Origin: Hyphomicrobiales bacterium
GTDB lineage: Bacteria; Pseudomonadota; Alphaproteobacteria; Rhizobiales; Rhizobiaceae
Assembly: GCA_900466575.1 (NCBI GenBank)
Contig: UBMP01000015.1
Span: forward strand, 1-64,000
DNA: 64,000 nucleotides
Reading direction: 5' to 3'
Every line of letters starts with the position of its first letter. Position 1 is the stretch's first letter. This document shows positions 187 through 31,948 of this stretch, piece after piece. The notes below the pieces were generated by a model. The model searched no databases. It saw nothing but the letters and a program-made list of their open reading frames with translations, and was not told where the DNA came from. The position numbers and the translations under genes are program-made.

Positions 187-2070
<1,884 letters not shown>

Positions 2071-6331: not shown

Positions 6332-7101
6332 GCAGCTCCGTCACAATGAACGAAGCAACAGCTGCGGACACCCAGAGGCCTTTGGCGCTTCTGGCGACGG
6401 GGATGAGCGGAGCAGATATCGAACGGCTTGTCCGGGAAGTTCGTGGCCGTTGCAGACGAAAAGGCGAAACGTTCACGTGGGACATCCTGGAGAAGGCATT
6501 GCGCCGGAACGACGACAGTCTTTCCGACGCCATCCGCCACCGCATCGCAGTCCATGAGATCGGCCATGCCCTTGCCTCCGAACTCACAGGCGTCGGCAAG
6601 GTCGTCTCGGTCCGCATCCATGGACTTAGCGGTAAGACCGAAACGCGAGTAGATCGTGAGCTGGCCCAATTCCCCGAGGGCATGGACGCAAACCTGATCT
6701 GCATCCTCGCCGGCCGTGCTGCTGAAGCAGTCGTCTTCGGCGACAAGGCGCTCGGCTCCGGAGGCGGAGAAGGAAGCGATCTGGCGCTCGCAACCAGGAT
6801 CGCGATCGACCTCGAAACGGCCTTCGGGATCGGCGACGATCACCCACTTCTTTATCGTCCGCCAGGCACCACCGGAGACATCTTGCACTACAATCCGGTA
6901 TTGGCGGAGCGCGTACATGGAAGGTTGGAGCAGGCGGAGCAGCGGGCGGCAGAATTGCTGCGACCCTATGGTGAGCTGATCGAGGCGCTAGCTCGCCAGC
7001 TTGTAGCCGCGCGTGTTCTGGAGGGTGAGACAATCAGGGCAGCGCTGGAGAGCGGTATGGCAGGCGACCACGCCGCGCCTCCTGACGCAGCGTCGTTCTG
7101 A
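6328..7101 (+). CDS. AAA lid plus M41-type zinc metalloprotease
   Basis: This 257-residue protein begins with the lid helix LATGMSGADIERLVREVRG (about 21-40), which in FtsH is fused to the ATPase. The peptidase domain follows: His76-Glu77-x-x-His80 in VHEIGHAL, the LAGRAAEAVVFG helix, and GEGSDLALAT with Asp151 as the probable third zinc ligand. All three ligands are present, so it should be active. The strong site AAAGGAGG lies before the ATG, which overlaps the ATPase stop. It acts with the preceding ATPase as a split FtsH-like unfolding protease. Its substrate is unknown. Confidence 0.82.
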   Translation: MSSSVTMNEATAADTQRPLALLATGMSGADIERLVREVRGRCRRKGETFTWDILEKALRRNDDSLSDAIRHRIAVHEIGHALASELTGVGKVVSVRIHGLSGKTETRVDRELAQFPEGMDANLICILAGRAAEAVVFGDKALGSGGGEGSDLALATRIAIDLETAFGIGDDHPLLYRPPGTTGDILHYNPVLAERVHGRLEQAEQRAAELLRPYGELIEALARQLVAARVLEGETIRAALESGMAGDHAAPPDAASF

Positions 7102-8541: not shown

Positions 8542-9519
8542 ATGGTACTACACACGCATAAGACGAAGAAGACGAAGACGAAGGCGCGCCCGCTGACGCC
8601 CGAGGAGCGGGAGCATGCGCCCCTGTTGCGCGACGTCGCGGCGGCGGTCGCCGCGGTCAAGCGCCGGGATGCCGAACAGAGCTACGAGCTCGGTGAGCAT
8701 CTCGCCCGGGCCAAGGATGTGCTGCCGGAGAAGGCGCTTGGAGCTTGGGTCAAGGAGAATTGCGGGTTCACGCCGCGACTGGCTCGCTCCTACATTGCCG
8801 TCCACACGCATCTCCAGGCCTTCCGGTCACGCCTCGTCGCGGCAGCGGTCAAGCCGACGATCCTGCTGACGCTTGCCAACGCGGACATCGACAAGGTCGG
8901 GGAGGTGGTCGAGGCCATCGAGGCGGACGGTCGTCTGTCGGTCGTCCAGGTCAAGCGCATGCTCAAGCCGGCGGGCACCGAGGATGCGGCCGCCCCGGCG
9001 GCTGGCGGACGCCAGGGGCTCATGCGTGCGGCGCACGAGAAGCTGAAGACCCACACGGCGCACTTTGTCCAGGAAGCTGCGGTCGTTCTGAAACAGGTGG
9101 AGGTCGCGGTTACCGCGCTTCAGGCTGGGAAGCACGTCGCGAAATCGGCGTTGTTCGACAAGCTTGGAAGTGCTGCTGGGCGTGCTGGCGACCATCTGTC
9201 TAATGCCGTCGAAACAGAAGCAGATCGGGATTGGAAGGCGGTTAGCGCGACGCTTGGCCGCTTGAGTGATCTGCCGCGCTGGCCGGGACGGTCGGAGTTC
9301 CCGGACTGGCTTATCGGCGAAGTCCTGCCGCGTCTGCGCTTCGCCGTCCTGGGTGCGTCGGAGAGGTCTGCTCGTGATATCTCACCGGAAATTGTCGAGG
9401 TCATCCCGCACGTCGGCTCCGCTGAAGCCGAGATGGAGGACGACGACGTTGTCCTCACCTCGCATCTCCCGGCAATGATCCCTGGCGCAGTCCCGGCGAC
9501 CGTTCCCGCCGTCTCTTGA
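8542..9519 (+). CDS. DUF3102-like protein, 325 aa
   Basis: The N-terminal third contains YELGEHLARAKDVLPEKALGAWVKENCGFTPRLARSYIAVH, in the style of DUF3102 proteins carried by phages and plasmids. In those the segment resembles a helix-turn-helix that senses or binds DNA. The remainder is alanine-rich helix with an acidic end (EAEMEDDD) and no catalytic motif. AGGAAGGAAA lies upstream of the ATG. It is the last gene before a strong hairpin (9538-9565). A regulatory role in the island is possible but not shown. Confidence 0.6.
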   Translation: MVLHTHKTKKTKTKARPLTPEEREHAPLLRDVAAAVAAVKRRDAEQSYELGEHLARAKDVLPEKALGAWVKENCGFTPRLARSYIAVHTHLQAFRSRLVAAAVKPTILLTLANADIDKVGEVVEAIEADGRLSVVQVKRMLKPAGTEDAAAPAAGGRQGLMRAAHEKLKTHTAHFVQEAAVVLKQVEVAVTALQAGKHVAKSALFDKLGSAAGRAGDHLSNAVETEADRDWKAVSATLGRLSDLPRWPGRSEFPDWLIGEVLPRLRFAVLGASERSARDISPEIVEVIPHVGSAEAEMEDDDVVLTSHLPAMIPGAVPATVPAVS

Positions 9520-10050
9520 CCAGAACTACATCATCCTCGGGCTGCCGGCATCTGTCGGCAGCCCGTACCGCATAAACGCCATGCCGAGGCGGCGGATGAT
9601 GAAAATATATGGCTAATAGCAATTTCAAGCCGGGTGCACGGGAATAACTGCCGCATTGCAATCTTTGCTGGGTCCAACTGCCCACAGCTAATCTGGTTCG
9701 TTCTGGAGGTAGGGAAGCGCAAAATGGTGTGGAACAGAGCAAGATTTTGTTCGTGATGCCTAACCCGAGCCGGCACGCGACGACCTGGATGTCGCGGCGG
9801 AAATCGCCGCAGTGTCTTCCAGGCTTTCGAGCGCCGCGTTTCAATCTGCGCTTAATGCTCGCTCAATTTCGTTCTCCCAAGTTCAAGCCGACCATAGCAA
9901 TCTTTTCCGTATTGCCGATAGCAGTTCTGCGTCGTTGCCCCACCCCGTTAATGCTATCCACTAAAAGTTGCGGCGATCTAATCCTTGATGCTTGGAATCG
10001 GATGCAAAGCGGCTTTAAACTGCCAAGCAAAAGCGGGGGGGAGAATCAAA
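9520..10050. other. Leader region of the seven-gene operon
   Basis: Apart from the hairpin at 9538-9565 I see no gene here. Reading frames in 9729-9965 lack a sensible start or are broken. The operon promoter should lie in this stretch, but I cannot place it with confidence. Confidence 0.4.
9538..9565 (+). terminator. Strong hairpin after the DUF3102-like gene
   Basis: CGGGCTGCCG (9538-9547) pairs perfectly with CGGCAGCCCG (9556-9565) around an 8-base loop. No T-run follows, so it may be a weak or Rho-assisted terminator. Confidence 0.5.
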
Positions 10051-11070
10051 TTGGTCAAGGCAGGCACGCACCAAAATGTTGCGGTCGAGGAGATTGAGCT
10101 CGACCGGTCCAACCCTCGCATCCGCAAGTTTCTCGAAATGTACGGGGATAATCCATCTCCCGAGGCGATCTATCTTGCACTTGGAGCTGGCAACGAAGAG
10201 GAGCCTGGCAGTTCAAGCAGCACCACTTTCGAGAAGCTCAAGCAATCGATCCTGACGAATGGTGGCATCATACAGCCCGTGATCCTCAATCGCCGAGGCG
10301 ACGGAACGCTCGTCTGCGTCGAGGGCAACACTCGGGTCGCGCTCTATAAGAGCTTCCTTGAGGAGGGGGTCAAAGGCGACTGGGGCCATATTCCCTCACT
10401 CGTGCATGATGAGATTGACGACGCTTCGGTTCATGCGATCCGGCTTCAGATCCATCTCGTCGGCACCCGACCCTGGGATCCCTATTCGAAGGCGAAGTAT
10501 CTCTACGAGCTGAGGACCCAGGAGCATCTGCCGTTTGCCACGATCGTCGACTATTGCGGCGGTCGACAATCCGAGGTGCTCGAGAGCATCAACGCCTACG
10601 CCGATATCGAGAGATATTACCGTCCGGTGGTCGGTGAGGATGGCGAGTTCGATACGACGCGCTTCAGCGGCTTTGTCGAGCTGCAGAAGGCAGGGATAAA
10701 GCAGGCGATCAACGCGGCCGGTTTTGACTGTTTCGACTTCGCCCGCTGGATCCACGACGGCAAGCTGCATCCGCTGCAAAAAGTGCGCGTGCTGCCTCGG
10801 GTCTTACGCAATGAAAAGGCGCGTGAGATTTTCCTCAAGCAGGGCATCAAAAAGGCTGAAGCCGTACTTGAGAAGCCTGATCTGACAAAAACACTGCAGG
10901 AGGCCGAAATCGGTCAGCTCGCCCGCGCCCTCGTGACGCATATCGGTGCGCTCCAATATGATGAGCAGCAACGCATCAAGGCCGACCCCGGCGGTGATAC
11001 CGCACAGGCGCTGATTGACGCGCAAGGGGAATTGGCAAAGCTGCTCGATTGGCTGAAGCTGAGTTCGTGA
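10051..11070 (+). CDS. ParB/Srx-like protein, first gene of the seven-gene operon
   Basis: The N-terminal half carries a ParB-type nuclease/CTPase fold: VEEIELDRSNPRIRKF, then GGIIQPVILNRRGDGTLVCVEGNTRVALYK, where the GNTR motif replaces the usual GxxR(R) box. A long helical C-terminal region follows, with no helix-turn-helix I can name. I place the start at TTG 10051, because GGGGGGGAGA precedes it by a normal spacing and the protein then begins close to the ParB domain. An upstream ATG at 9985 lacks a clear site. There is no partner ParA, so plasmid partition is unlikely. One base separates it from the nuclease gene. ParB-like folds in defence loci can bind or cut DNA or hydrolyse nucleotides. 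Confidence 0.8.
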   Translation: MVKAGTHQNVAVEEIELDRSNPRIRKFLEMYGDNPSPEAIYLALGAGNEEEPGSSSSTTFEKLKQSILTNGGIIQPVILNRRGDGTLVCVEGNTRVALYKSFLEEGVKGDWGHIPSLVHDEIDDASVHAIRLQIHLVGTRPWDPYSKAKYLYELRTQEHLPFATIVDYCGGRQSEVLESINAYADIERYYRPVVGEDGEFDTTRFSGFVELQKAGIKQAINAAGFDCFDFARWIHDGKLHPLQKVRVLPRVLRNEKAREIFLKQGIKKAEAVLEKPDLTKTLQEAEIGQLARALVTHIGALQYDEQQRIKADPGGDTAQALIDAQGELAKLLDWLKLSS

Positions 11071-11071
11071 T

Positions 11072-11491
11072 ATGGGCGAGACTGCGGTTCACGCCGGACT
11101 GGTCGAAGTATTGGTGGCCTATGCCGAGACTGAGCTCGGCTTGGCTGCTAATCTTTCCATTCGGCACGATGCAGTGCGACCGATCAGAGGCGAACGCCCG
11201 CCGCGCATCAATGGTTATGTTCCCGATCTATATGCCACGGATGTCCCGACGACAGTGACCTTGATCGGTGAGGCCAAGACCAGGGCCGACCTTGAGACCG
11301 AGCATACGCGTTCACAAGTTCATGCCTTTCTCGACTATCTGTCGCAAACCCCGAATGGTATTTTTGTCCTCAGTGTGCCGATGAGTGCGGCGGTGACGGC
11401 CCTCCGGCTGCTTTCACAACTTAAGGCACCGTTCCAGGAAGCAGAGACCCGCACCGTTGTCATCGACGGTATCAGGGTGAAGGATTGCTGA
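11072..11491 (+). CDS. Small PD-(D/E)XK-type nuclease
   Basis: This 139-residue protein is close to the minimum size of the fold. A Pro51-Asp52 pair (NGYVPDLYATD) is followed by Glu67-Ala68-Lys69 (LIGEAKT), then a helix with Gln82 (RSQVHAFLDYL). This is the expected PD...ExK...Q order of restriction-endonuclease-like enzymes, including archaeal Holliday-junction-resolvase and VRR-type relatives. The catalytic set appears complete. It lies one base after the ParB-like gene and seven bases before the SNF2 helicase, so it is probably the DNA-cutting component of this operon. Substrate and specificity are unknown. Confidence 0.75.
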   Translation: MGETAVHAGLVEVLVAYAETELGLAANLSIRHDAVRPIRGERPPRINGYVPDLYATDVPTTVTLIGEAKTRADLETEHTRSQVHAFLDYLSQTPNGIFVLSVPMSAAVTALRLLSQLKAPFQEAETRTVVIDGIRVKDC

Positions 11492-11498
11492 GGTCGCC

Positions 11499-12980
11499 AT
11501 GCTGAAGATACAGAAAGCTGCGAGCCTCGACGCCAAACGTTCTGCCTTTCCACATCAGCTTGAGGCGTTTGCCGCGGTCAAGGACCTTCCCTATGCCGCC
11601 GTGTTTCATGAGCAGGGTCTGGGCAAGACAAAGATTGGTCTCGACGTTGCTCTTTTTTGGCTCGCCAATGATGTCGCGGACTCGGTGCTGATCGTCACCA
11701 AGAAAAGCCTGATCGAAAACTGGCGCAATGAGATTGCCGACCACAGCCATCTGCGTCCGCGTGTCCTTGGCCAAGACCGGAACGCAAACTTCTACGCGCT
11801 CAATAGTCCCGCCCGCCTCTACCTGACCCATTACGAGGCTATCGTTTCCGAGAGGAAGCGGCTCGAGCTGTTTTTGAAGACGCGCAAGGTGGCGGTGCTG
11901 CTCGATGAAGCGCACAAGATCAAGAATCCGGAAGCGGAAATCAGCCAGGCTTTGCATGCGCTTGCTGCAGGATTCGTGCGCCGGGTCATCATGACCGGAA
12001 CACCAGTCGCAAACCGCCCTTTCGACCTGTGGTCGCAGATCAGGTTCCTCGATCTCGGAAAAAGCCTTGGTGATGAATTTGCCGCCTTCAAACGAGACCT
12101 CGACCTGAGCAACGAGCTGCGCAAGGACGAAGGACGAGCGCAGGCATTTGCCGACGAACTTGAAGCGGTCTTTGAGAAGATCCGGCCGTTTTCGGTCCGG
12201 GAGACGAAGAAAACCGCTGGGCTGAAATTGCCTGACAAGACGATACGCAATCTGGAATGCGAACTTGAGCCGCGACAAGCGGAAATCTATGCACAATTCC
12301 GTGACGAATTGGCCGCAATCGTTGTGCGAGAGGGTCGGCCGGTTCTCGATGACGCCGAGGAAATTCTCAAACGCTTGCTGCGACTGGTCCAGGTTGCCTC
12401 CAATCCGGCGATGGTCGATCAAGCCTATAAGTCCGTGCCGGGAAAGATGCGTGTTCTAGATGAGCTCGTGACAGACGCCATCGATGCTGGTGAGAAAATC
12501 GTCGTTTGGACGAATTTCACGAAGAACGCCGAGGCGTTGCGCCGCCATCTCGATGAATTTGGCGCAGTTCTGGTGCATGGCGGAATAGAGATTGCCAAGC
12601 GCGAGGAAGCCCTGAGCGCTTTCAAGATGGATCCGCAAATCCAGGTACTTGTGGCGACACCTGGTGCAGCGAAGGAGGGGCTGACGCTCACCGTCGCCAA
12701 TCACGCCGTCTTCTATGACCGCACCTTCAGTCTCGACGACTACCTGCAGGCGCAGGACCGGATTCATCGGATTTCGCAGGACAAGCCCTGCTTCGTCACC
12801 AACCTTATCGGTGCCGGCACGGTCGATGCCTGGGTCGATGCGCTTTTGTCCGCCAAGCATCTCGCCGCACAATTGGGGCAGGGTGACATTGGCCGCGAGG
12901 AATACGATAAACGAGCCGATTATGCCTTTGCAGATATGATCCGCGAGGTGCTGAGGCTCGACAGTCAGGAGGAAGAATGA
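11499..12980 (+). CDS. SNF2-family helicase/translocase
   Basis: This 493-residue protein has both RecA-like lobes. Walker A is GLGKT at 40-44 inside HEQGLGKTKIG, the DEAH box is at 136-139, and TGTP is at 166-169. The second lobe ends with the SNF2 motif QAQDRIHRISQ. There is no extra nuclease or bromo-type domain. SNF2 proteins move along double-stranded DNA and are common in DISARM, Dnd and other phage-defence loci. Here the gene lies between the PD-ExK nuclease and a second ParB-like gene, with an ATGA overlap to the latter. It probably moves on DNA to displace proteins or feed the nuclease. Confidence 0.92.
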   Translation: MLKIQKAASLDAKRSAFPHQLEAFAAVKDLPYAAVFHEQGLGKTKIGLDVALFWLANDVADSVLIVTKKSLIENWRNEIADHSHLRPRVLGQDRNANFYALNSPARLYLTHYEAIVSERKRLELFLKTRKVAVLLDEAHKIKNPEAEISQALHALAAGFVRRVIMTGTPVANRPFDLWSQIRFLDLGKSLGDEFAAFKRDLDLSNELRKDEGRAQAFADELEAVFEKIRPFSVRETKKTAGLKLPDKTIRNLECELEPRQAEIYAQFRDELAAIVVREGRPVLDDAEEILKRLLRLVQVASNPAMVDQAYKSVPGKMRVLDELVTDAIDAGEKIVVWTNFTKNAEALRRHLDEFGAVLVHGGIEIAKREEALSAFKMDPQIQVLVATPGAAKEGLTLTVANHAVFYDRTFSLDDYLQAQDRIHRISQDKPCFVTNLIGAGTVDAWVDALLSAKHLAAQLGQGDIGREEYDKRADYAFADMIREVLRLDSQEEE

Positions 12981-13990
12981 ACACGATAGAAAAGAACCCG
13001 CTGAAGGCTGGCGAAACGATCCTTATTCGCGGGGTCGACGTGCCTGTCGAAACCGGGTCTTTGCCGCAGAAAGATTTGCTGTTCTTCGTGGAAAATCCCC
13101 GGGTTTATTCGATCTTGCGCACCGACGGCGAAGAGCCGAGCCAGGCCGACATCGAGCGGAAGCTCCTCGACATGGACCATGTGAAAGCGTTGATCCAGGA
13201 TATCAAGCGTGATGGAGGGTTGACGGATCCGGTCGTAGTCAGGGCGGGCACGCTGGAAGTGTTGGAAGGCAATAGCCGGCTGGCAGCTTATCGGGCGCTC
13301 GCAAAAAACGACCCTGTCAAATGGGGGTATATGAAGGTGCGGCTGCTGCCGCAAGACATCGACGAGGCTCTCATTTTCGCCCTCTTGGGGCAATATCATA
13401 TCAAAGGTAAGAAGGATTGGGCGCCATTCGAACAGGCCGGCTTTCTTTATCGGCGGCATAAAACTCACGAAGTTGATACTGGCAAGCTGGCAGTTGAAAT
13501 TGGTCTGTCGAAACGAAAGGTAGAGCATCTGATAGCCGTTTATCAGTTCATGCTCGACCACGGTGAGGCCGATACCGCCAAGTGGAGCTATTACGACGAA
13601 TATCTGAAGTCTTCGAAGATCCGGAAGGCTCGCCTCGCCAACGCGACTTTCGACGACCTCGTAGTCGCAAAGATCAAGAGTGATGAAATTGCCAAGGCTG
13701 TTGATGTCCGTGACCGCTTGCCGATTATCTGTTCGGCGCCGAAGGCACTCCAGAAGTTCGTCAACGGTACCGAAGGGTTTGAGGACGCTTTCGACCATGC
13801 CGTTGAAACTGGCGCCGATAATACGCCCCTGAAGAAGATTACCAAATTTCGCAACTGGCTTGCCCTACCGGAAACGGAAGCTGCGCTCGGCCATGCCCAG
13901 GACGAGACGCGCAAGAAGATCCTGTTTGAACTCGGCAAGCTCTCCGGTCGCGTTGACGCGTTAATGCACAAACTCAATCCAAAAAAATAA
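12977..13990 (+). CDS. Second ParB/Srx-like protein
   Basis: The 337-residue product has a ParB-type N-terminal domain: LLFFVENPRVYSIL, then DIKRDGGLTDPVVVRAGTLEVLEGNSRLAAY, where GNSR is the nucleotide/phosphate-binding box. The middle (GLSKRKVEHLIAVYQF) looks like the helix-turn-helix region of ParB proteins. It differs clearly from the first ParB-like protein of the operon, so the two are not a recent duplication. It overlaps the helicase stop by ATGA. About 100 untranslated bases separate it from the next gene. The two proteins may act as a pair or have different DNA or nucleotide targets. Confidence 0.8.
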   Translation: MNTIEKNPLKAGETILIRGVDVPVETGSLPQKDLLFFVENPRVYSILRTDGEEPSQADIERKLLDMDHVKALIQDIKRDGGLTDPVVVRAGTLEVLEGNSRLAAYRALAKNDPVKWGYMKVRLLPQDIDEALIFALLGQYHIKGKKDWAPFEQAGFLYRRHKTHEVDTGKLAVEIGLSKRKVEHLIAVYQFMLDHGEADTAKWSYYDEYLKSSKIRKARLANATFDDLVVAKIKSDEIAKAVDVRDRLPIICSAPKALQKFVNGTEGFEDAFDHAVETGADNTPLKKITKFRNWLALPETEAALGHAQDETRKKILFELGKLSGRVDALMHKLNPKK

Positions 13991-14091
13991 CTGCTCATCG
14001 CGCCAATTTGGCTCAACCCATTGCTTGACTTGTGCCCTCCAACTGCAGAAACTGCACCCAGCGAATGCAAATTCGGAAGCAGGGGGGGGCT

Positions 14092-15117
14092 ATGGCTGAA
14101 TCAATCTGGATCAATTGCTCGACCGGCGTATCGGTCGACAGGCCGGTCCTGTTGGGATTTGCGTCGGCAAAGCTCTTGTATCGATATAGCTTTGCAGACG
14201 TGTTGAACGAGGACACGGGACTTGGATACCAGCGACGCTTCAACTCGCAACACAGCCAGGATTTCCGCCGCTACATCCGACAGACCGGCGCATCGACCAT
14301 CCCGCTCACGTTGAATCTTCGGCCAGACGAACAGGGCTGGCAATTGCAGAACATCGGCGCGGGGCAGGCTCGGTTGGAAATCGAGCCCGCGGCCGGCAAG
14401 ATCATGGCCCAGGTCGATTGCCAGCATCGGCTCGGATGCCTGGAGGATCTCGACATCCAGCTGCCGTTCATGTGCTATGTGGGGCTTAGCCTGAAAGAGG
14501 AGATGGAAGTCTTCAGCACCATCAACAGCAAGGCCAAGGGCCTTAGCGCCAGTCTCCTTGACTTTCATGATGCGCATCTTGCCGGCGACCTCGCCAAAGA
14601 CCGTCCCGAAATCTTCATCGCGCTTCATTTGAATAATGACCCGGAATCGCCCTGGTGTCGGCAGCTCGACCTCGGTGGGGAAAGTACGTCCGGTATGGCG
14701 CGGCGCGCCTCTTTGCGAACGATGCAGAAAGCGATCAAGCGCTTTATCAGCGCCACCCGGTTGCTCAAGACACGTTCGCCCGAAAAGGTTGCGCAGATCG
14801 TCTTGTCGTTCTGGCGCGCAGTGGCGGAAGTGCTGCCTGCGCAGTGGAGCACGCCGCGCAAGCACATCCTGACCAAGGGTGTTGGCGTCTATTCGCTGAT
14901 GGACATCGCGGCCGACATCTACAACGAGGCCGATGCCTCCGCGAAACTTGACCGTGGCTATTTCGTCAATCGGCTCGCTGACTTTGCGCATGATGTTGAT
15001 TGGACGACAAATGGTCGGCTGAAGGGTCTCGGCGGCGAAGGCGGCGTCAACGAAGCAGTCGAATATATCCGCGAAATGCGCAAGCGCTCTCATCTGAAAG
15101 TCGTCAGCAATGGCTAA
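14092..15117 (+). CDS. DGQHR-domain (DndB-like) protein
   Basis: This 341-residue protein carries QVDCQHRLGCLED at about 107-119, the signature of the DGQHR family with Cys110 in place of the usual glycine. It is followed by EEMEVFSTINSKAKGLS, the conserved FxxIN segment of DndB-type proteins. DndB is the transcriptional/regulatory member of the DNA phosphorothioation locus, and related proteins occur in many modification loci. No dndC, dndD or dndE is nearby, so this is not a normal Dnd operon. ATG 14092 is preceded by a run of G (AGGGGGGGG), the same kind of site used by the first gene. It overlaps the radical SAM gene by eight bases. Confidence 0.75.
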   Translation: MAESIWINCSTGVSVDRPVLLGFASAKLLYRYSFADVLNEDTGLGYQRRFNSQHSQDFRRYIRQTGASTIPLTLNLRPDEQGWQLQNIGAGQARLEIEPAAGKIMAQVDCQHRLGCLEDLDIQLPFMCYVGLSLKEEMEVFSTINSKAKGLSASLLDFHDAHLAGDLAKDRPEIFIALHLNNDPESPWCRQLDLGGESTSGMARRASLRTMQKAIKRFISATRLLKTRSPEKVAQIVLSFWRAVAEVLPAQWSTPRKHILTKGVGVYSLMDIAADIYNEADASAKLDRGYFVNRLADFAHDVDWTTNGRLKGLGGEGGVNEAVEYIREMRKRSHLKVVSNG

Positions 15118-16744
15118 CAAGAAAATCCTGCTCATCGAGCCAGGCTACAAGAACAAGTACCCGCCGCTAGGCCTGATGAAGATCGCCCAATATCACGGGC
15201 CGCGCGGCAAGCGCGACGATGTGCGTTTCATCAAAGGCGAGGATCGTTCTGTTATGAACGAGGCCTGGGATCGCATCTACGTAACCACGCTGTTTTCCTT
15301 CGAATATCCGAAGATTTCCCAATCGATCGACTTTGCGCTGGAAGTAGCGAACGGCCAGGCCGACAAGGTCTTTGTCGGCGGGATTGCCGCTTCGCTGATG
15401 CATGAGCGGTTTCTGGATGAACGTCGCTGGCACGGAATTCGCTTCATCAAGGGGCTTTTGTCCGAAGCGCCGGCCGTCTCGTTGCAACTGGATGAATTTG
15501 CTGAGGAGCTCTATTCCAGCGATACGGCGGGTCGGCCAATCGAGGATCTGGTGCCCGATTACGACATCCTGTCCCAGATCGACTACAAATACCCAGTAAG
15601 GGATGCCTATTTCGCTTACACCTCGCGAGGCTGCATCCGCAAATGCCATTTCTGTGGCGTGCCGAAGCTAGAGGGCATGCAGCGCGACACAGAGTCCCTA
15701 ACAGATCTCGTGCGAGCCATCGATGAGCACTATGGTCCAAAGAAGGACCTGATTCTGATGGACAACAACGTCGTCGCTTCGCCGAGATTCAAGGAGATCA
15801 TCGCCGAGATCCGCGACCTTGGCTTCGTACCCGGCGCCAAGCTATTGCGGCCGGGTGCGAAGGTACCGGTCCAGCGTCGCGTCGACTTCAATCAAGGCGT
15901 GGACGCGCGTATTCTTTGCAAAGATCCGATGTATCTGCGCGAACTGGCAACAATCTGCCTGAAGCCGTTACGTATCGCTTTCGATCATCTCGGTGTCAAA
16001 AAGCCCTATGAGCAGGCTGTGCGCTACGCCGCTGAGTATGGGTTGACCGAGCTCTCCAACTACATGCTCTACAATTTCCATGACGGGCCGGAGGACCTTT
16101 TCGAGCGGATGCGTCTGAACGTCACCCTGAATGAGGAGCTCGGTATCCGCATCTGGTCGTTTCCGATGCGCTACCAGCCGACAAATCGGCCGGACCGGGG
16201 TCATATCGGCGAAAAATGGTCGCGCTATCAACTGCGTTCGATGCAAATCATCCTGCAGGCGACGCACGGCATTGTCTCCGGTGCGCCCGAATTCTTCAAA
16301 AGGGCATTCGGCGATACGTTTGACGACTATGCTCGCATCCTTCTGATGCCGCATGACTTTATTTTCAACAGGAACTGGTACGAGCATTACGACCCGGAGC
16401 AGAAGCTTCACGAGTATCAAAAAGAATTCGCCTATCTCGACAGTTACGAGCAGGCTGAACTCCTCGAGCTGCTCTCCTCCTGCGATCCGCGGGAGTTTGT
16501 GACGTTGAGCGATCGGGCGGCCAATTACAAGGTTCGTCGGATCCTGCGTTTTTATATCCCGGTATCGAAAGACGAGCTGACCGCAATCTGGTCGAGGCAG
16601 AAGGAACTCGTGCGCATCGAGTCGATCTCCGACCTTGGGCTGGCCGAAGATGAGCGTGTCGAAGACGCTGGACTCGACTATGAAGAGTATGCTCAGCAAC
16701 CCATCGGCATCGAGCAAGGCATAAAGCAGAGGGCCGTCGCATGA
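15110..16744 (+). CDS. Radical SAM enzyme with a B12-binding-like N-terminus
   Basis: This 544-residue protein starts KKILLIEPGYKNKYPPLGLMKIA, the opening of cobalamin-binding radical SAM enzymes, but no DxHxxG cobalamin motif is evident. The cluster motif is Cys175-x3-Cys179-x2-Cys182 in GCIRKCHFCG, which binds the 4Fe-4S cluster that cleaves S-adenosylmethionine. A TIM-barrel-like region follows, with DLILMDNNVVAS. The long C-terminal part (about 330-540) is not recognised and may bind the substrate. The usual relatives methylate or rearrange small molecules or modify RNA. In this operon I infer action on a nucleotide or DNA base, which the sequence alone does not prove. It overlaps both neighbours by 4-8 bases. 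Confidence 0.85.
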   Translation: MANKKILLIEPGYKNKYPPLGLMKIAQYHGPRGKRDDVRFIKGEDRSVMNEAWDRIYVTTLFSFEYPKISQSIDFALEVANGQADKVFVGGIAASLMHERFLDERRWHGIRFIKGLLSEAPAVSLQLDEFAEELYSSDTAGRPIEDLVPDYDILSQIDYKYPVRDAYFAYTSRGCIRKCHFCGVPKLEGMQRDTESLTDLVRAIDEHYGPKKDLILMDNNVVASPRFKEIIAEIRDLGFVPGAKLLRPGAKVPVQRRVDFNQGVDARILCKDPMYLRELATICLKPLRIAFDHLGVKKPYEQAVRYAAEYGLTELSNYMLYNFHDGPEDLFERMRLNVTLNEELGIRIWSFPMRYQPTNRPDRGHIGEKWSRYQLRSMQIILQATHGIVSGAPEFFKRAFGDTFDDYARILLMPHDFIFNRNWYEHYDPEQKLHEYQKEFAYLDSYEQAELLELLSSCDPREFVTLSDRAANYKVRRILRFYIPVSKDELTAIWSRQKELVRIESISDLGLAEDERVEDAGLDYEEYAQQPIGIEQGIKQRAVA

Positions 16745-18309
16745 CCCTGGAACCATTGGCCCGACCAAGCCGGGCGGCCATTATCGCGGCTCGTAATGCA
16801 GGCGAGTCCGAAGCCATCGAAGATATTGTCATTGGCCGCGACGTCCTCGAGTTGGTGTCGAGTGCGATGTACATCGATCCGATGACGATCTACCGAGAGT
16901 ATGTTCAGAATGCCGCTGATGCGATCGATGAAGCACGAGCCTCCGGTCTGCTTGGGCCAGGGGAGCGCGGTCAAGTTCTGATCAGCATTGATCAGGCCTC
17001 TCGGTCGATTACGATCCGAGACAACGGCATTGGGATCTCCAATGCCGACTTTGCACGCAAAATGGTCGCGCTTGGTGCGAGCGGGAAGCGTGGGACGACC
17101 GCACGAGGCTTCCGTGGGGTAGGGCGCTTAGCCGGCCTTGGCTATGCGCAGGAGCTAATTTTCCGCTCGAAAACAGCCTCGGATCCATTGGTTGCTGAAT
17201 TGGTCTGGGATTGCCGCAAGCTAAAAGCTGCCTTGCGTCAGTCGGAGGGTACGATTGAGGATCTGATCCGCTCGGTCGCAACGCTCAAGAAGAAGTCGGC
17301 CGGCGAGTACCCGGAGCGCTTTTTTGAGGTCGAACTGCGCAATGTGGTGAGACTCCGCAGCGACCGCTTGATGAGCCCGGCTGCCGTCGACGAATATCTG
17401 GGGCAAGTCGCTCCGGTTCCCTTTTCCCCTGAGTTCCGGTTTGGTCCCGAAATCCGCGAAGCTCTGGTTGCATACGTCGGGCTTGGCGAGCTCTATATTC
17501 GCATTGACGGCTTCGGCGATCAGATATATCGACCGCATCGTGATGTGATGTTGGACGAGGGCGGCAAGGGCGTCGAGTTCAACGCACTGTCTGTCACTGA
17601 GATCCCCGGCATTGACGGTGACACAGCTGCCATAGCTTGGATTCTGCACCATCAATATGAAGGTGCTTTGCCAAACGTCGCCGGCGTCAAAGGGTTGAGG
17701 CTTCGCTGCGGCAACGTCCAGATTGGCGAACACGGATTACTGGAAGAGCTGTTTCCTGAAACGCGCTTCAACTCGTGGTCCGTTGGCGAGATTCATGTCG
17801 TCGACAAGAAGATCATTCCGAATGGGCGTCGGGATCATTTCGAACAGAATTCCCACTACCACAACCTTACCAATCAGCTCGCGCCTTTGGCGCGCGACAT
17901 AGCGAAGCGGTGCAGGACCAGTTCCGTTCGGCGCAAGTGGGAACGCGATTACGATATCGCCATTCAGGCAGTGTCTGAGGCGGTCGAAATTATCGCTCAA
18001 GGCAGTCTCAAGGCCGAGGCCAGGCTGGCTGTTGCTGCCTCGGCCGGGCATTCCCTGATGAAGGCGAGGAAGATTGCCGGGTTGGAGCCGCTCGGAGACG
18101 GCTTCGCCCGACGCCAGTCAGAGGTCGATGCACTTCAGGCGCGGCTTGCATCTCTCGAAGGCGAGGTAAGCGCCGGATCTGCGTTCGAAAGATTGCCGGC
18201 GGAGGAACGCGAGCGCTATCAGACTGTGTTCGAGCTGATCTACGAATGCTCGGCCAACCGGGCGGTCGCCAAGTCGCTGATCGACAAGATTATGCTGCGG
18301 CTCGCCTAA
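16741..18309 (+). CDS. GHKL (Hsp90-like) ATPase
   Basis: This 522-residue protein has the Bergerat ATP fold: N-box with Glu53 and Asn57 in YREYVQNAADAID, G1 box Asp94-x-Gly96-x-Gly98 in RDNGIGIS, and G2 box GFRGVGRLAG (123-132). The remainder resembles the middle domain of Hsp90/MORC-type proteins, with a C-terminal helical region. Such ATPases close like a clamp on DNA or on a client protein and recur in anti-phage operons. It is the last gene of the operon and overlaps the radical SAM stop by ATGA. Confidence 0.85.
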   Translation: MTLEPLARPSRAAIIAARNAGESEAIEDIVIGRDVLELVSSAMYIDPMTIYREYVQNAADAIDEARASGLLGPGERGQVLISIDQASRSITIRDNGIGISNADFARKMVALGASGKRGTTARGFRGVGRLAGLGYAQELIFRSKTASDPLVAELVWDCRKLKAALRQSEGTIEDLIRSVATLKKKSAGEYPERFFEVELRNVVRLRSDRLMSPAAVDEYLGQVAPVPFSPEFRFGPEIREALVAYVGLGELYIRIDGFGDQIYRPHRDVMLDEGGKGVEFNALSVTEIPGIDGDTAAIAWILHHQYEGALPNVAGVKGLRLRCGNVQIGEHGLLEELFPETRFNSWSVGEIHVVDKKIIPNGRRDHFEQNSHYHNLTNQLAPLARDIAKRCRTSSVRRKWERDYDIAIQAVSEAVEIIAQGSLKAEARLAVAASAGHSLMKARKIAGLEPLGDGFARRQSEVDALQARLASLEGEVSAGSAFERLPAEERERYQTVFELIYECSANRAVAKSLIDKIMLRLA

Positions 18310-18848
18310 GCGGAGCTCCAGCGGGACCGCTCTGAGTGGAGGCTTTCTAAGTTTTACGCGGTGGGATGTCGCGCTTCATTTTCTGGGTGGGGGCATGTGC
18401 GGCTCGATCCATTTATCAGGAAATACGAGAGGTTTGTCTCCGATCTGACGGAGGTGTCAACGGCGGAGTAAAAACCGGCCACGCGACGGCGTTCTACCTT
18501 GACACGGCCGCGCTGAAGGGGGCTATCAACCCTGGCCACGACGCCCGCCGTCAGTTCCTCGCCTAGCGGCGGTCTAAGCCCTCCGGCAGCTTGCTGGTTA
18601 AAGCCAAGCGCGTAAGATGATAGGGAAGTTGCTGGACGAAGACGAACGTCTGACACGTCTGAAGGCGCGGCTCATGGATAAACCTCCAGGAAGTGCTCGA
18701 TGTTGTGAACGTTTTTGTGGGCCCAAGAACGTATCAGAAAATCCGACGTCGCCTCAAGGCACCTGGGTCCTAACGTCATGCGCGTCGGCGACCGTAATAG
18801 TCTTTTCGTTCTTCTCGTCAACTCATTGCCAGTCCTCTCGACGGGTAC
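18310..18848. other. Gap between the seven-gene operon and the membrane protein
   Basis: No gene is supported. Sequence near 18440-18560 (GTCAACGGCGGAGTAAAAAC and onward) has the look of rhizobial transposon-adjacent DNA, but I could not match it to a family. Possible short frames here lack ribosome sites. Confidence 0.35.
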
Positions 18849-19724
18849 TTAAGTCTTGCAGAAGGTCGCCATTCGGGGCAAATCCCAGAGTCGCGTCGCG
18901 ATGACGAGAATGACTGTTAGTCCGATTAGGACAAGACCACACGTCCATGCTTTTCGCCGCGCCCCGGCCTGCCGCAGGCGCGGCAACGGCCAGCGTAGCT
19001 CGCTCGAGGAATCCACCGGGTACAGAATTGGCCAGCCGCGGGTGAAGTCGAGATAGTCTCTGAACAGGATCAAGGCACCCATTAGGCCAACGAAGTAGAC
19101 GCCTGCTGTGTGGTAATTCGTTGGGCAGGCCGCAGAGGTCACGTTGCGCCATATGAAGTAAGCGAACACTGAGACGCACAGCATCAAGCTGTTCATCACG
19201 AACCAGAACGCCTTGAGCGCCATTATCGCCTCGGAAACGACTGGTTTTGTCTTGAAGATGATCACCTCGCGGACAAGTAGCAGCGCTAGTCCTTGCCCGA
19301 TCAGGTATACGTAAGCTATGAAATACCACGTAAATCCGACCGCATCGGTGTAGCCCCTTCCGAGCGCTTGCGCCATCAGGTAGAACGGGATCATCGTGAA
19401 AACGTTGACAAAGTAGTCCGCACCGAAATGGCTTGCCTTGGTTGGCGCAAGCGGGTGCTTGGCATACACAGTGTCTAAGAACCGGTCCCCCTGGTAATAG
19501 AACAGTCCCGCAGTGAAGATGAAGGATATCGTTATCTCGATGTGCAGAAACAGGGGGCCAAGAGCATAGGCCGCAGGATCTGCAAAGACGCTGATTTTTT
19601 TCATGCTTTCGACCGCAACGATCCCAAAGCTTAGCGAGAAGAGCACGGCGTAGAGCCTCTTGAGGTTGTCGATAGTGCGCTCGCTTTGTCGGATTCGGTC
19701 GCGCTCATCTTCTGTAATAGACAT
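18849..19724 (-). CDS. Multi-pass membrane protein, about 291 aa
   Basis: About six hydrophobic spans are visible, including LYAVLFSLSFGIVAVE, LHIEITISFIFTAGLFYY, VFTMIPFYLMAQALG, YFIAYVYLIGQGLALLLV, FWFVMNSLMLCVSVFAYFIW, VYFVGLMGALILF and CGLVLIGLTVILVIA. The N-terminus is charged and cytosolic (MSITEDERDRIRQSERTIDNLKRL). No enzyme motif is present. The start at 19724 follows GGAGAG with an 8-base gap. It stands alone, convergent with the seven-gene operon and with its own direction shared by the Bil-type genes. Small membrane proteins are often toxic effectors in defence islands, but that is only a possibility. Confidence 0.65.
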   Translation of the reverse strand: MSITEDERDRIRQSERTIDNLKRLYAVLFSLSFGIVAVESMKKISVFADPAAYALGPLFLHIEITISFIFTAGLFYYQGDRFLDTVYAKHPLAPTKASHFGADYFVNVFTMIPFYLMAQALGRGYTDAVGFTWYFIAYVYLIGQGLALLLVREVIIFKTKPVVSEAIMALKAFWFVMNSLMLCVSVFAYFIWRNVTSAACPTNYHTAGVYFVGLMGALILFRDYLDFTRGWPILYPVDSSSELRWPLPRLRQAGARRKAWTCGLVLIGLTVILVIATRLWDLPRMATFCKT

Positions 19725-19823
19725 CTGAATAACTCTCCAAAAAGCATTCACTGGATTGGGGTCAGCGTTGTTTATAGCAAACCTTCTGAAGGAAGAATAA
19801 CTGCAGCTCCGCTCCGTTTTTCT

Positions 19824-20281: not shown

Positions 20282-21646
20282 TCAGCGCAGGGTCGTATAG
20301 CCGGGGTTAAAACGCTTGAGCACTTGCCCCTTAACACCTTGCATAGCGCTGAGGTCTCGAAGAGTAAGATCAAGCACGCCTAAACCTGGCCCTCGGTTGA
20401 GGCGGCGAACGATCTCCATGAGCGCGAGGGTCGCGGCGATCACCCCGACAAAGGGGACGCCAACGGTCCTCGATGCGATTTCCAGCAAACCACAATCATC
20501 TAGGCCGCGCTCGGCCAGATCCTGGTAGGCGGTCGCCCTCGTGACTGCCCTAGCGTCAGCAGTGCGCGCACTTGAGACGTTGCCCCATCGCGCGCGAGCC
20601 GTGACTGGGCCCGGAAATGTATGCAGCCGCATGGCTAAATATTCACGCGGACCTGCGCCCAAACCTGCATCGACCACTAAATCGAAGCGAGGAGCCTCGA
20701 GAATTGCCCGCGCCTCAGCGTTGTCGACACCGCAGAACATGACACGTGGGTCGTCCTCGGCCAGGGTGATACCGGCTGCAAAGCGCCGCTCGACGAGCCG
20801 AGTCCGGAACCCCCGTGCCTCCGCCCATGCCGACATTTCGCGGGTCTTGAGGCGACCGACCATATCAGCGTTGGTCAACATGGATGTACTGTCGTTCGCT
20901 ACGGCCAAACGGTCGAAATCCTGAAGTGTCAATTCGACGTCGCCTGGACGCTCGAACGGGAGCAGGCCCAGTGTCCACAGGAAGGCTTGGCCCAAGTGCC
21001 CAAGGCCGAGGATCCAAAGCTTGCTCGGTGCCACCCAGCCTGCAGGACCCGCGCCGCTGCGCCATGGTGCTCGCGGATCCCATAGTGACAGACCCACATC
21101 TCGATCGCCTGCCATCGGGTTGCCTCGCAAACGTTGGAACACCTCGGCGACGGCCAGGGCACCAGCCAAGACTGCAGCGGGAACGTCATTCGCGCCTTCG
21201 GCCAACCGCTCGCCTTCACCAGAGACAAACACGCCTCCGCGCCAGTCGCCAAAGGTGACCTGCAGCGCAGCGGCGGGTGCCCCATCGCCCAACCAGGTGA
21301 TCGGTGTTTGTGGCGAGGGCTCGGTCCGTGGCATCCCACCTAGTGTCACAACTGCATCTCCCAGGGTTTTGCCCAGACCGGGGAGATCGACCAGCAATGG
21401 GACACGAAGATCGCCAACGACTTCCACTCCACCCAACAAAGCTCGCCGCCCACAGTTGACCATGGTCAGCAAGGCAGCTTGGGCGGCGAGTGACTGGCCG
21501 GCAGCTGCGCCCAGGCCTATCGCCATGCTATAACTCGCGAACAGGGCATAAGCAGCTTCGACGCTATCGGCCTCACCCGTGTCCAAGGCCATCTTGACTC
21601 CCCGATGGAGGGTGTCAGAACGCATTTCGGATATCATCTTGTTCAT
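20282..21646 (-). CDS. E1-like ubiquitin-activating protein (Bil-type, BilD-like)
   Basis: This 454-residue protein has an unrecognised N-terminal domain (about 1-200) and a ThiF/E1 adenylation domain with GLGHLGQ at 214-220, LQDFD around 242-246 and CGVDNAEAR at 305-313. A candidate catalytic Cys385 lies in LDDCGLLE. E1 enzymes adenylate the C-terminus of a ubiquitin-like protein and pass it to E2. I place the start at ATG 21646 because it overlaps the JAMM gene stop (TGATG). The frame is open further upstream. It is the last of four coupled genes, Ubl-E2-JAMM-E1, the order of bacterial ISG15-like (Bil) anti-phage operons. The product should load the Ubl encoded at 22610-23098. Confidence 0.85.
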   Translation of the reverse strand: MNKMISEMRSDTLHRGVKMALDTGEADSVEAAYALFASYSMAIGLGAAAGQSLAAQAALLTMVNCGRRALLGGVEVVGDLRVPLLVDLPGLGKTLGDAVVTLGGMPRTEPSPQTPITWLGDGAPAAALQVTFGDWRGGVFVSGEGERLAEGANDVPAAVLAGALAVAEVFQRLRGNPMAGDRDVGLSLWDPRAPWRSGAGPAGWVAPSKLWILGLGHLGQAFLWTLGLLPFERPGDVELTLQDFDRLAVANDSTSMLTNADMVGRLKTREMSAWAEARGFRTRLVERRFAAGITLAEDDPRVMFCGVDNAEARAILEAPRFDLVVDAGLGAGPREYLAMRLHTFPGPVTARARWGNVSSARTADARAVTRATAYQDLAERGLDDCGLLEIASRTVGVPFVGVIAATLALMEIVRRLNRGPGLGVLDLTLRDLSAMQGVKGQVLKRFNPGYTTLR

Positions 21647-22125
21647 CACATAAATGTTCCCGTCTTGAGAATGCGGCGGCTGCGCCATCCGCTCAAATTC
21701 GTCCAGGTGTGCGAACCCTCGTAGCGATAGAGGCCCATCCGGTGTCGCCAAACGGGGTTGCTTGCAAAGCGTTCGACAATGAGCGCAAGGTGACCTGGCC
21801 GTGCGATCATTGGATTGCGACGATCAGCTTCGCTTTGGATCGCAGCGCCGCTGTGGGTGTGGACGTCGGCCAGCACCTGTAAGCCCGAAGACCGGCAGAT
21901 ACCCCAAAGGCTCTCGAAGGCGTCGGCGTAGAGGACACATACACCTGTGCTGTAGGCGTTCGGGTCGAGATCGTCGTAAAATACGCACCTCTCAAACGAG
22001 CGTCGATCACCTTGGCACTTGCCTAGCAGGAAGGCACCGCTTTCGGTTTTGCCGCCGCCGCGGCTTCGCAGCTCGGCCATTAGGACGAGCCATTGGTTCC
22101 GTTGAATGAAGAGTTTGTCAGCCAC
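21646..22125 (-). CDS. JAMM/MPN deubiquitinase-like protease (BilC-like)
   Basis: This protein of about 159 aa has the JAMM zinc-protease set: Glu28 in TESGAFLLG, His89-x-His91 in ADVHTHSG, Ser98 and Asp101 in QSEAD. The spacing from the second His to Ser is six residues, one shorter than the textbook motif. A GTG start at 22125 is preferred because AAGGGGG precedes it. An ATG at 22146 would lie well inside the E2 gene. Such proteases trim Ubl precursors or remove Ubl from targets, and in Bil loci this role belongs to BilC. It overlaps E2 upstream and E1 downstream. Confidence 0.85.
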
Positions 22126-22606
22126 CGCGCACCCCCTTGTAGTCAACGCTATTCAGCAGTTCGTGCAGGAACTCCAGGTACTGTTGGAGGCCCTTTTCGG
22201 GTTTCCAGATGTACGCTGCGTACTCCTGAGGCCAGTTCGTATGTCCGATGATGCTCATGCGGTCGCACGGCGCGTACAGGCAGGTCCCGCTGTGCCAATC
22301 TGGACGAAACACAGCCGAAACCCGGCGAGCGCCGGTAGGCCATTGGCCGAAGGGCAACGGTGAGGAATTGGCGGAGAGCCAAGGTCGCGCCGTCGGCGGG
22401 TCTTGGGGATAGCCTGTGCAGTCGAAGCGAAATCCGTAAGCGTCGGGAGCGCCTTTCCTGGGCGCGGCAGCAATCTCGATTTCGGCAATTGGCCAGTTAA
22501 TACAGACGACGCGCCACCGGCCGAGGTGAACGGCGAGCTGAAAGGAGCCCTCCGCTACCTCGTCCAGGAAAGCCTGCTCGTCCGGGCGGGGAAGCACCAC
22601 GGTCAT
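22118..22606 (-). CDS. E2-like conjugating enzyme (BilB-like)
   Basis: This 162-residue protein has an E2 fold pattern: [18 protein letters not shown] (the PxxPP-type segment) and [13 protein letters not shown], where Cys109 is the likely thioester cysteine. E2 accepts the ubiquitin-like protein from E1 and transfers it to a target without a visible E3 here. The last residues are GVRGG, which resembles a ubiquitin tail and may be coincidence. It lies three bases downstream of the Ubl gene and overlaps the JAMM gene. Confidence 0.82.
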
Positions 22607-22609
22607 ATG

Positions 22610-23098
22610 TCAGCCCTCGACACGCTTGACGGGCACCAAGCTGAACGCCAGCTCGCAGCAACCGGACACCAGTGCACCAATCTGCACGTCCGGGTCCGGC
22701 CGATCGGTGGTCCCCGTGATTTGTAGGACATGTTCGCTGGCATCGACCGGCGGCATCTTGAGTTCGTGCACATACCAGCGCTTGACGTGGTTCACCGTCG
22801 CCGTGGGCGGGAAGTCATGGCGCACTTCAGGCGTGTCAGCGTAGTGCAGGACGACGTTGATCTTCTTGCAGCTATGCACATGGACCCGGTGCTTATCCTT
22901 CACGCCTTGGTGATGTAGCGGCTTGTCGACGTGCAGCGGGTGCTCGTCTTCTCCCGCGAAGACCATGGCCTCTTCGATGGCCATTCCCAGGGCTGCTGCG
23001 GCTGCGAGAACCGCCTCAGGTCCTGCGTCTTCGGCGACCTCAATCAGCTCGATGGAGCGGTGGCCCTCGATCTGCATGAACAGTTTCAGAATAGACAT
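22610..23098 (-). CDS. Ubiquitin-like modifier with two beta-grasp domains (BilA-like)
   Basis: The 162-residue product appears to hold two ubiquitin-like folds. The first is about residues 1-78 (ILKLFMQIEGHRSIELIEV ... KDKHRVHVHS) and the second about 79-157 (INVVLHYADTPEVRHDFPP ... LAFSLVPV), ending KRVEG with a terminal glycine, suitable for conjugation without processing. Two tandem domains are the hallmark of ISG15 and of bacterial ISG15-like BilA. Known Bil systems attach BilA to phage tail proteins and lower virion infectivity. The gene opens the four-gene set. Its ribosome site AGAGG lies in one arm of a 9-bp inverted repeat (23107-23148). Confidence 0.82.
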   Translation of the reverse strand: MSILKLFMQIEGHRSIELIEVAEDAGPEAVLAAAAALGMAIEEAMVFAGEDEHPLHVDKPLHHQGVKDKHRVHVHSCKKINVVLHYADTPEVRHDFPPTATVNHVKRWYVHELKMPPVDASEHVLQITGTTDRPDPDVQIGALVSGCCELAFSLVPVKRVEG

Positions 23099-31935: not shown

Positions 31936-31948
31936 GCCCCCGCAACCA
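31936..31948. other. attR core of the genomic island
   Basis: GCCCCCGCAACCA repeats the last 13 bases of tRNA-fMet (251-263). The first bases outside it lead directly into a terminator hairpin. Confidence 0.75.

Follow-up and report, generated by a model that had tools for sequence, protein, structure and literature searches.

A mobile radical SAM–GHKL gene cluster with exchangeable nuclease cassettes, a possible modification-type defence system of bacteria

The DNA analysed here, referred to as the window, is a stretch of 64,000 nucleotides from a Hyphomicrobiales bacterium (assembly GCA_900466575.1, contig UBMP01000015.1, positions 1 to 64,000), which carries between positions 10051 and 18309 a row of seven genes centred on a radical SAM enzyme and a GHKL ATPase. 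The first four genes, collectively denoted module M1, encode ParB1 (10051–11070), a ParB/Srx-fold protein of 339 aa with a TTG start and the motif EGNTR; a small PD-(D/E)XK nuclease of 139 aa (11072–11491) with P51 and D52 followed by E67, A68 and K69, D73 and Q82; an SNF2-type SF2 translocase of 493 aa (11499–12980) with GLGKT and DEAH motifs; and ParB2 (12977–13990), a second ParB/Srx-like protein of 337 aa with the motif EGNSR. The remaining three, the core, encode a DGQHR/DpdB-like protein of 341 aa with the variant motif D-C-Q-H-R (14092–15117), the radical SAM enzyme of 544 aa (15110–16744), composed of an N-terminal Rossmann/B12-like domain, a barrel with the CxxxCxxC motif and a helical C-terminal domain, and the Hsp90/MutL-like GHKL ATPase of 522 aa (16741–18309). 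All seven reading frames are intact, have no internal stops and lie on the plus strand, with successive spacings of +1, +7, −4, +101, −8 and −4 bases. Scans of positions 9500–18900 returned 2 sigma-70-like sites versus 3.6 in shuffled sequences and 8 terminator-like sites versus 9.6; since neither promoters nor terminators exceed chance, a single transcript for all seven genes is plausible. The layout and spacings given in a preliminary description of the locus, including the 101-base gap before the fifth gene (ATG at 14092), were reproduced, and its family labels hold: scans of the seven proteins against Pfam, NCBIfam, PADLOC and PHROGs firmly support SNF2, DGQHR and GHKL, and profiles, motifs and structural models support radical SAM, ParB and PD-(D/E)XK.

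The radical SAM protein served as the query in searches of 151 genomes, PLSDB (72,556 records), phage records and IMG/VR, and was aligned against the GTDB genome collection. The best 80 of 144 GTDB candidates, 7 of 12 plasmid records and the window yielded 88 loci, which were annotated with hidden Markov models (HMMs) built from window and plasmid proteins; having been selected by the radical SAM gene, all 88 contain it by construction. The GHKL gene adjoins it in 87 loci, the exception (L076) lying on a contig that reaches no further than the end of the radical SAM gene, and these two genes form the invariant unit. The order and strand of the seven window genes recur in 16 of the 88 loci. The DGQHR gene, the core and an M1-type SNF2 gene occur together in 28, and all seven HMMs find matches in 27; in 12 of those 28 loci, order or strand differs from the window. 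A fixed seven-gene operon was accordingly rejected, as the modules shuffle and the order of the window is kept in only 16 loci.

Cassette counts take flank length into account and are based on the 69 loci with enough flank (the 19 with a short flank were left out), with near-identical relatives, e.g., L025, L026 and L028, being kept. M1, whose variant form in L008, L034, L040 and others contains three ParB-like genes, is present in 37 of the 69 loci, and M2, a single large DGQHR protein at the slot held elsewhere by M1, in 15; no locus has both (Fisher p 1e-6, uncorrected). A third cassette, common among the loci and missing from the window, consists of a second GHKL ATPase, a paralogue of the core one (32% identity, E 7.5e-45), and a partner that is either a PIN nuclease or an ATPase of HerA type. 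The second GHKL is encoded in 38 loci and PIN (PIN_8 matches with E 6e-19 and 4e-21) in 29, always together with a second GHKL. The HerA/DndH-like ATPase beside the second GHKL of L041 (DndH profile, E 3e-40) belongs to a family that BLAST also finds in L050, L073, L075, L077 and L086, and in five of these six loci it adjoins the second GHKL at the place otherwise taken by PIN. At least one of M1, M2 and the second GHKL is present in 67 of the 69 loci; the other two carry an extra DpdB-like gene (L037) or AIPR/AbiU (L081). Seventeen loci have neither M1 nor M2, 15 of them with a second GHKL, which is accompanied by PIN in 8 and not in 7. Among 17 M2 proteins, a DndB/DGQHR domain is found in all, a Swt1-type HEPN domain in 5 (best E 8e-6) and a Card1-like endonuclease in 1 (E 0.002), while conserved D...EC residues suggest, tentatively, a nuclease-like N-terminus.

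Correlations of pairwise distances indicate that the cassettes evolve as units: 0.95 for SNF2 and ParB1, 0.95 for PIN and the second GHKL and 0.85 for the radical SAM protein and its GHKL, but only 0.39 for the radical SAM protein and SNF2. An exception to this picture of independent cassettes is M2, which may accompany the core more closely than M1, given a correlation of 0.88 with the radical SAM protein (136 pairs). On a quick tree of the radical SAM proteins, the slot that holds M1, M2 or neither has changed at least 22 times. A descent-corrected test of M1 against M2 comprised 11 independent pairs; in an average of 4.1 of them M2 went the opposite way, and in none did it go in the same direction. 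This test is underpowered and not significant (median p 0.125). When M1 was set against "M2 or second GHKL" under the same correction, the median p was 0.03 (range 0.008–0.375). Collectively, the comparison of these loci shows, at the level of sequence, that the radical SAM and GHKL genes co-evolve and stay adjacent, that the DCQHR protein joins them in part of the family and that the cassettes are exchangeable.

The DGQHR protein matches NCBIfam TIGR03187 above its cut-off (E 4e-41) and the PADLOC model of DpdB (E 1.5e-17). It scores 60.9 bits against a cut-off of 300 for the NCBIfam DpdB equivalog, and we regard it, by these profiles, as a relative and not a member of DpdB. Likewise, it reaches 44.9 of the 450 bits set for the DndB equivalog TIGR04172 and passes the Pfam DndB domain family (30.8 versus 29.1 bits), and its profile finds no PDB structure at E 0.1. 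The D-C-Q-H-R variant is present in 45 of the 46 copies adjacent to the radical SAM gene, and in the sole other copy (L044) the reading frame is off across that part. Six weakly matching DGQHR proteins from the same loci all read DGQHR, and 18 of 19 M2 proteins read IDGQHR. The cysteine, present only beside the radical SAM gene, is the most telling single residue observed. DGQHR domains are predicted to adopt the ParB/Srx fold, and sulfiredoxins of that fold carry a GCHR motif, according to the accessible text of PMC4619093. The small DGQHR gene lies directly before the radical SAM gene in 46 of the 88 loci; it has been gained or lost just 7 times on the radical SAM tree and is therefore a property of certain clades.

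The radical SAM enzyme of the window scores 25.8 bits with the Pfam Radical SAM model, just under the cut-off of 29.5, and its assignment to the superfamily is based on motif counts and model fold: CxxxCxxC, conserved in 88 of 88 homologues, lies in a TIM-like barrel. The AlphaFold model (pLDDT 87.7) has a Rossmann-like N-terminal domain, the radical SAM barrel and a helical C-terminus, and Foldseek relates it to MiaB, MgmA, OxsB, CysS and RimO (E 5e-10 to 2e-6) with TM-scores of 0.4–0.6. The cobalamin motif DxHxxG was found within the first 160 residues of none of the 88 homologues, and a B12-dependent enzyme was rejected by this motif, B12 binding without that histidine being possible. A viperin seems unlikely as well, since the protein has no PADLOC match at E 1 and PADLOC presumably contains pVip (viperin) models. 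The top Foldseek match, MiaB (E 5e-10), is a tRNA-modifying enzyme, which raises the possibility of protection at the RNA level, with the radical SAM enzyme modifying tRNA or other RNA and nucleases cutting RNA that lacks the modification; the PIN genes of 29 of the 69 loci and the HEPN matches of 5 of the 17 M2 proteins would suit such a role. The C-terminal part of the model is nevertheless helical, with no beta-barrel like the TRAM domain of MiaB, and the 74 aligned rows hold no invariant cysteines besides those of CxxxCxxC and hence give no indication of a second iron–sulfur cluster as in MiaB and RimO. Moreover, the window has no RNase cassette, and a search of its whole genome for PIN gave no match, which is weak evidence. 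On balance, we consider an RNA-level system improbable.

The core GHKL ATPase matches Pfam HATPase_c_3 (E 4e-10), and the nearest solved structures to its profile are those of HtpG/Hsp90 (E 1e-11). Kinship to Hsp90 suggests a conformational switch, and the tail of the radical SAM protein carries a docking-like motif, E..EDA.L, that is conserved in 80 of 88 homologues and falls within a low-confidence stretch of the model. Both features would fit a sensor or abortive-infection system, in which the radical SAM–GHKL core senses infection, produces a signal or alters a peptide or a protein, and in this way unleashes the nucleases, leaving no mark on host DNA. PIN cassettes and the HEPN domains of M2, typical suicide RNases, would serve the same end, and a radical SAM domain has been proposed to modify a peptide effector in the "ternary" conflict systems with FtsH, as stated in the accessible part of PMC7159879. 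However, the DpdB-like partner, where present, points to nucleic-acid modification, and no peptide gene was found in a search limited to at least 90 aa, so that a smaller one is possible. We rate a sensor of this kind as rather unlikely.

Of the M1 proteins, the translocase is the most readily assigned (Pfam SNF2-rel_dom, E 3e-29; Helicase_C, E 4e-17). Pfam makes no ParB call for either ParB-like protein (ParB1, E 0.05; ParB2, nothing). Nevertheless, the ParB1 profile matches ParB-type Noc structures (E 0.003), both proteins match the PADLOC model PDC-M38A (E 5e-6 and 1.5e-8, respectively), and ParB2 matches NCBIfam parB_part with E 9e-4, under the cut-off of that model; a ParB2 profile search of the PDB gave no match at E 0.1. 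The EGNxR motif is found in 41 of 47 aligned ParB1 and 48 of 50 ParB2 rows. The small nuclease receives no PD-(D/E)XK call from Pfam, and its profile returns chance-level matches from the PDB. Its PD...EAK motif is conserved in 37 of 39 homologues, and the AlphaFold model (pLDDT 90.4) has the secondary-structure order H-E-E-E-(short H)-H-E-H-E, i.e., the motif PD...(D/E)xK sits on the alpha-beta-beta-beta-alpha-beta core of the PD-(D/E)XK fold. Foldseek support for this assignment is weak (best E 0.0046, none below 0.001); the matches include CdiA-CT and several enzymes of the PD-(D/E)XK fold, namely PspGI, MunI, PaqCI, Can2, XPF and Mus81.

The gene cluster is rare and widely spread among bacteria. 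A full-length radical SAM homologue was found among the 151 genomes only in that of the window, and the phage records yielded 10 matching records, none above 60% identity. Within the genus 1 of 6 genomes was positive, within the class 1 of 385 and, when ParB1 was the query, within the phylum 1 of 398, the genome of the window every time. The 88 loci are assigned to Pseudomonadota (54), Acidobacteriota (16), Verrucomicrobiota (3), Gemmatimonadota (2) and, with one locus each, Binatota, Nitrospirota, Latescibacterota and Chloroflexota, many of them being metagenome bins, for which single phylum labels may be wrong; the 9 loci without a phylum would correspond to the window, the loci from plasmid records and an unidentified isolate. 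In PLSDB, the radical SAM and GHKL queries (at least 80% of the query) and the DGQHR query (above 50% identity) retrieved the identical 12 records, of which 7 carry ParB1 and the other 5 a near-full-length M2; three strains occur twice, leaving about 9 distinct plasmids. A DGQHR protein with 26% identity on a Leptospira weilii plasmid lies outside these 12 records.

In IMG/VR, 14 loci were recovered with the radical SAM bait, the best 8 of which all have an adjoining GHKL gene and 6 of these M1. The 6 weaker loci comprise 4 partnerless, short radical SAM genes (about 30% identity), L111 with no GHKL gene within the stretch covered, and L112, in which the radical SAM gene follows a second-GHKL-type gene. 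The GHKL bait found 13 loci on 12 contigs, among which L132 has no radical SAM gene within the stretch covered. On a faecal phage-labelled scaffold (L117), a radical SAM gene with 34% identity adjoins a GHKL gene in reversed order. Phage contigs (L113–L116 and L012) contain short radical SAM genes belonging to this wider family, about 30% identical; that of Marinitoga camini virus 1 lies beside a HerA gene. Of 8 contigs found with the ParB1 bait, 7 encode the radical SAM–GHKL pair; the other, L124, carries M1 (8998–14045) with no radical SAM match. There, the cassette is followed by a gene for a 391-aa protein whose end looks LexA/S24-peptidase-like by eye, perhaps representing the same nuclease cassette under another trigger. 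Thus, M1 and GHKL seem tied to the radical SAM gene strongly, not absolutely. The independent evolution of the cassettes and the solitary M1 of L124 would be expected if two unrelated systems were adjacent by chance; M1 nevertheless accompanies the core in 37 of 69 loci, in all 7 plasmid records with ParB1 and in 7 of the 8 viral contigs found with that bait, which makes coincidence very improbable.

In the window, the operon lies within a 31.7-kb island (251–31935) inserted at the 3′ end of a tRNA-Met gene (187–263, plus strand). The last 13 bases of this gene (251–263) form the left copy of a direct repeat, and the right copy (31936–31948, plus strand) is followed by sequence matching that after an uninterrupted tRNA-Met gene in the same genome (L102). 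The evidence for the uninterrupted site rests on this second tRNA-Met gene, because two other genomes of the genus (L100 and L101) have no tRNA in the stretch beside the thiolase gene. A large serine recombinase is encoded at the left end (226–2070, minus strand; Pfam Recombinase, E 6.5e-24; Resolvase, E 3e-23); such enzymes are found at tRNA genes more rarely than tyrosine recombinases. G+C content is 0.55–0.58 over 8–20 kb versus 0.59–0.65 beyond 32 kb, and is not lowered in the first 8 kb of the island or at 20–24 kb. Elsewhere, the cluster is carried by plasmids, some of them typed conjugative, and ParB/Srx enzymes feature in conflict between conjugative plasmids, judging by a title cited in PMC10853773. 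The cluster could hence serve competition or addiction among plasmids and islands, by stabilizing its element or destroying rival replicons. Against this, the sampled neighbours of the loci include many phage-defence families, and the ParB-like genes are placed with a nuclease and a translocase, with no ParA noted among the seven genes in general library scans. We hold such a role to be of low probability.

The neighbour sample was drawn at random as 125 of 336 genes from 80 genome loci, and 9 genes judged to be parts of the system were removed. The remaining 116 genes match 128 PADLOC models at 1e-10, compared with 16 for 116 control genes (of 197, from 17 stretches of other genomes), a comparison that counts models and not proteins, of which one can match many, and in which the control is not species-matched. 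Neighbour matches listed include PD-T7-1 (3 genes), DrmD, AbiEi, UzuA, PtuA, a reverse-transcriptase defence protein and a type IIG enzyme, and 6 of the 16 control matches are to GajB/UvrD helicase models. The island of the window has further genes of note. Four short genes on the minus strand (20285–23098) resemble by eye an E1 (ThiF), a JAB peptidase, an E2-like and a beta-grasp ubiquitin-like protein, the E2-like one matching Pfam DUF7665 (E 1.6e-56) and the E1- and JAB-like ones having no Pfam match at 0.001; this set may constitute a further defence system of the island. It adjoins a gene (23200–26583, minus strand) for an 1127-aa fusion of an IrrE-type peptidase, a UvrD helicase and a PD-(D/E)XK nuclease. 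An AAA+ ATPase and an M41 peptidase, encoded by two separate genes with a 4-base overlap (4283–7101, plus strand), are reminiscent of FtsH split in two, and directly after the operon, on the opposite strand, lies a gene (18849–19751) for a protein without family match that looks membrane-like by eye.

We favour, with a probability of about 0.45, the reading of the cluster as a modular, modification-type anti-invader defence on mobile DNA with exchangeable nuclease effectors. A defence function is inferred here from the nuclease cassettes, the defence-rich neighbours, the patchy mobile distribution and the relatedness of individual components to those of Dpd, Dnd, Zorya and MORC-type systems, and we infer that the core modifies DNA because it has a DpdB-like partner and because 67 of 69 loci combine it with an effector. 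The core would then be the modification arm, in which the radical SAM enzyme marks DNA or one of its precursors, the GHKL dimer opens and closes on ATP and the DCQHR protein acts as an NTP-driven or cysteine-based partner. M1 would be the restriction arm, with the ParB pair as a nucleotide-switched DNA clamp or sensor, SNF2 translocating and the PD-(D/E)XK subunit cutting DNA that lacks the mark, whereas PIN and HEPN parts might provide RNA-cutting back-up effectors. The full version of this scheme, in which a radical SAM enzyme driven by a dedicated Hsp90-like ATPase gives DNA or its precursors a mark of a new kind, its partner works via the cysteine and several effector classes are fitted to one core, we regard as doubtful. 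The preliminary description had envisaged a single seven-gene defence system that modifies DNA or a nucleotide, senses foreign DNA and cuts it, with an abortive-infection signal as an alternative. The seven genes do co-occur in other genomes, and their labels and defence-rich setting hold up; the idea of one fixed system gives way to separately evolving cassettes, and the GHKL ATPase is unlikely to be a mere part of a ParB/SNF2 sensor, because it forms the invariant unit with the radical SAM enzyme.

Several observations weigh against a modification-type defence. The small DGQHR protein is not essential to the core, since it is missing beside the radical SAM gene in 42 of the 88 loci. The nearest folds of the radical SAM enzyme, at TM-scores of only 0.4–0.6, act on tRNA (MiaB), proteins (RimO and MgmA) or small molecules (OxsB and CysS). 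We know of none among these five that acts on DNA. No DNase was identified in the 15 second-GHKL loci without M1 and M2, a poor fit to restriction, and M2 is poorly typed, with HEPN in 5 and an endonuclease profile in 1 of 17 proteins. To these add the non-significant M1/M2 exclusion after correction for descent, the lone M1 of L124 and the model-based counting and unmatched control of the neighbour comparison. The sensor and RNA explanations stay viable in view of the loci with PIN only or a HerA-type ATPase only, the missing DGQHR genes and the resemblance in fold to MiaB.

Bacteria are known to use only a small number of chemistries to label nucleic acids so that self can be told from invader. 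If the defence reading is correct, a radical SAM core with plug-in nucleases would extend that number and could lead to a modified base not seen before. The exchangeable cassettes offer a ready test of which part distinguishes self from non-self, and the invariant replacement of Gly by Cys in the DGQHR motif provides a one-residue handle on the poorly understood DndB/DpdB family.

In line with the earlier remark that no published system has this gene set, we found no description of a radical SAM–GHKL(–DGQHR) system in the open literature, a search that did not extend to subscription papers, preprints outside PMC and supplements. As no score placed the cluster in a named system, its composition appears new, and its function is predicted. 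SNF2 scores 89 bits with ZorD (cut-off 1500) and 57 with DrmD (cut-off 950), below the level of Zorya or DISARM membership, and the other six proteins have no PADLOC or NCBIfam matches to partner genes of these systems. With MORC/paraMORC systems, the operon shares a GHKL ATPase, an SFII helicase (SWI2/SNF2 in one type) and nucleases of restriction-endonuclease fold, as far as these are described in the accessible text of PMC2292703; the terms "radical" and "ParB" are absent from that source, and the GHKL ATPase of the operon is nearest to HtpG among solved structures. The domain pair of M2 has a precedent in Saro_3948, a ParB–HEPN fusion from the 2013 survey of HEPN domains (PMC3710099), which lists it as a fusion and not as part of a radical SAM–GHKL system, "radical SAM" being absent from its accessible text. 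Plasmid pNL1 of the same species, Novosphingobium aromaticivorans, carries an M2 protein (L009), which is perhaps Saro_3948 itself.

The closest parallels are with Dpd and Dnd, of which the cluster was rejected as a variant because their defining genes are unmatched among the seven in the PADLOC and NCBIfam matches listed. Like Dpd, it unites a DpdB-like DGQHR protein (E 1.5e-17) with an SNF2 helicase related to DpdE (E 5e-37). DpdB is the ATPase of the 7-deazaguanine DNA-modification system, according to the accessible part of PMC12839542. Unlike Dpd, the operon has radical SAM and GHKL genes and DCQHR in place of DGQHR, and none of the seven proteins matches DpdA (TGT-like) or DpdC among the PADLOC and NCBIfam matches listed (for SNF2, the best 25 of 32 PADLOC rows). 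DndA, DndC, DndD and DndE are similarly without a listed match among the seven in these two libraries. With Dnd, as portrayed in the accessible text of PMC10853773, the cluster shares the principle of a core chemistry combined with interchangeable nucleases (HEPN, PIN and REase) and the presence of a ParB-superfamily protein, which in Dnd is DndB. It differs in having a true radical SAM enzyme, which DndC is not (PMC10853773, same text), and in its constant ATPase, a GHKL protein here versus the ABC ATPase DndD in Dnd.

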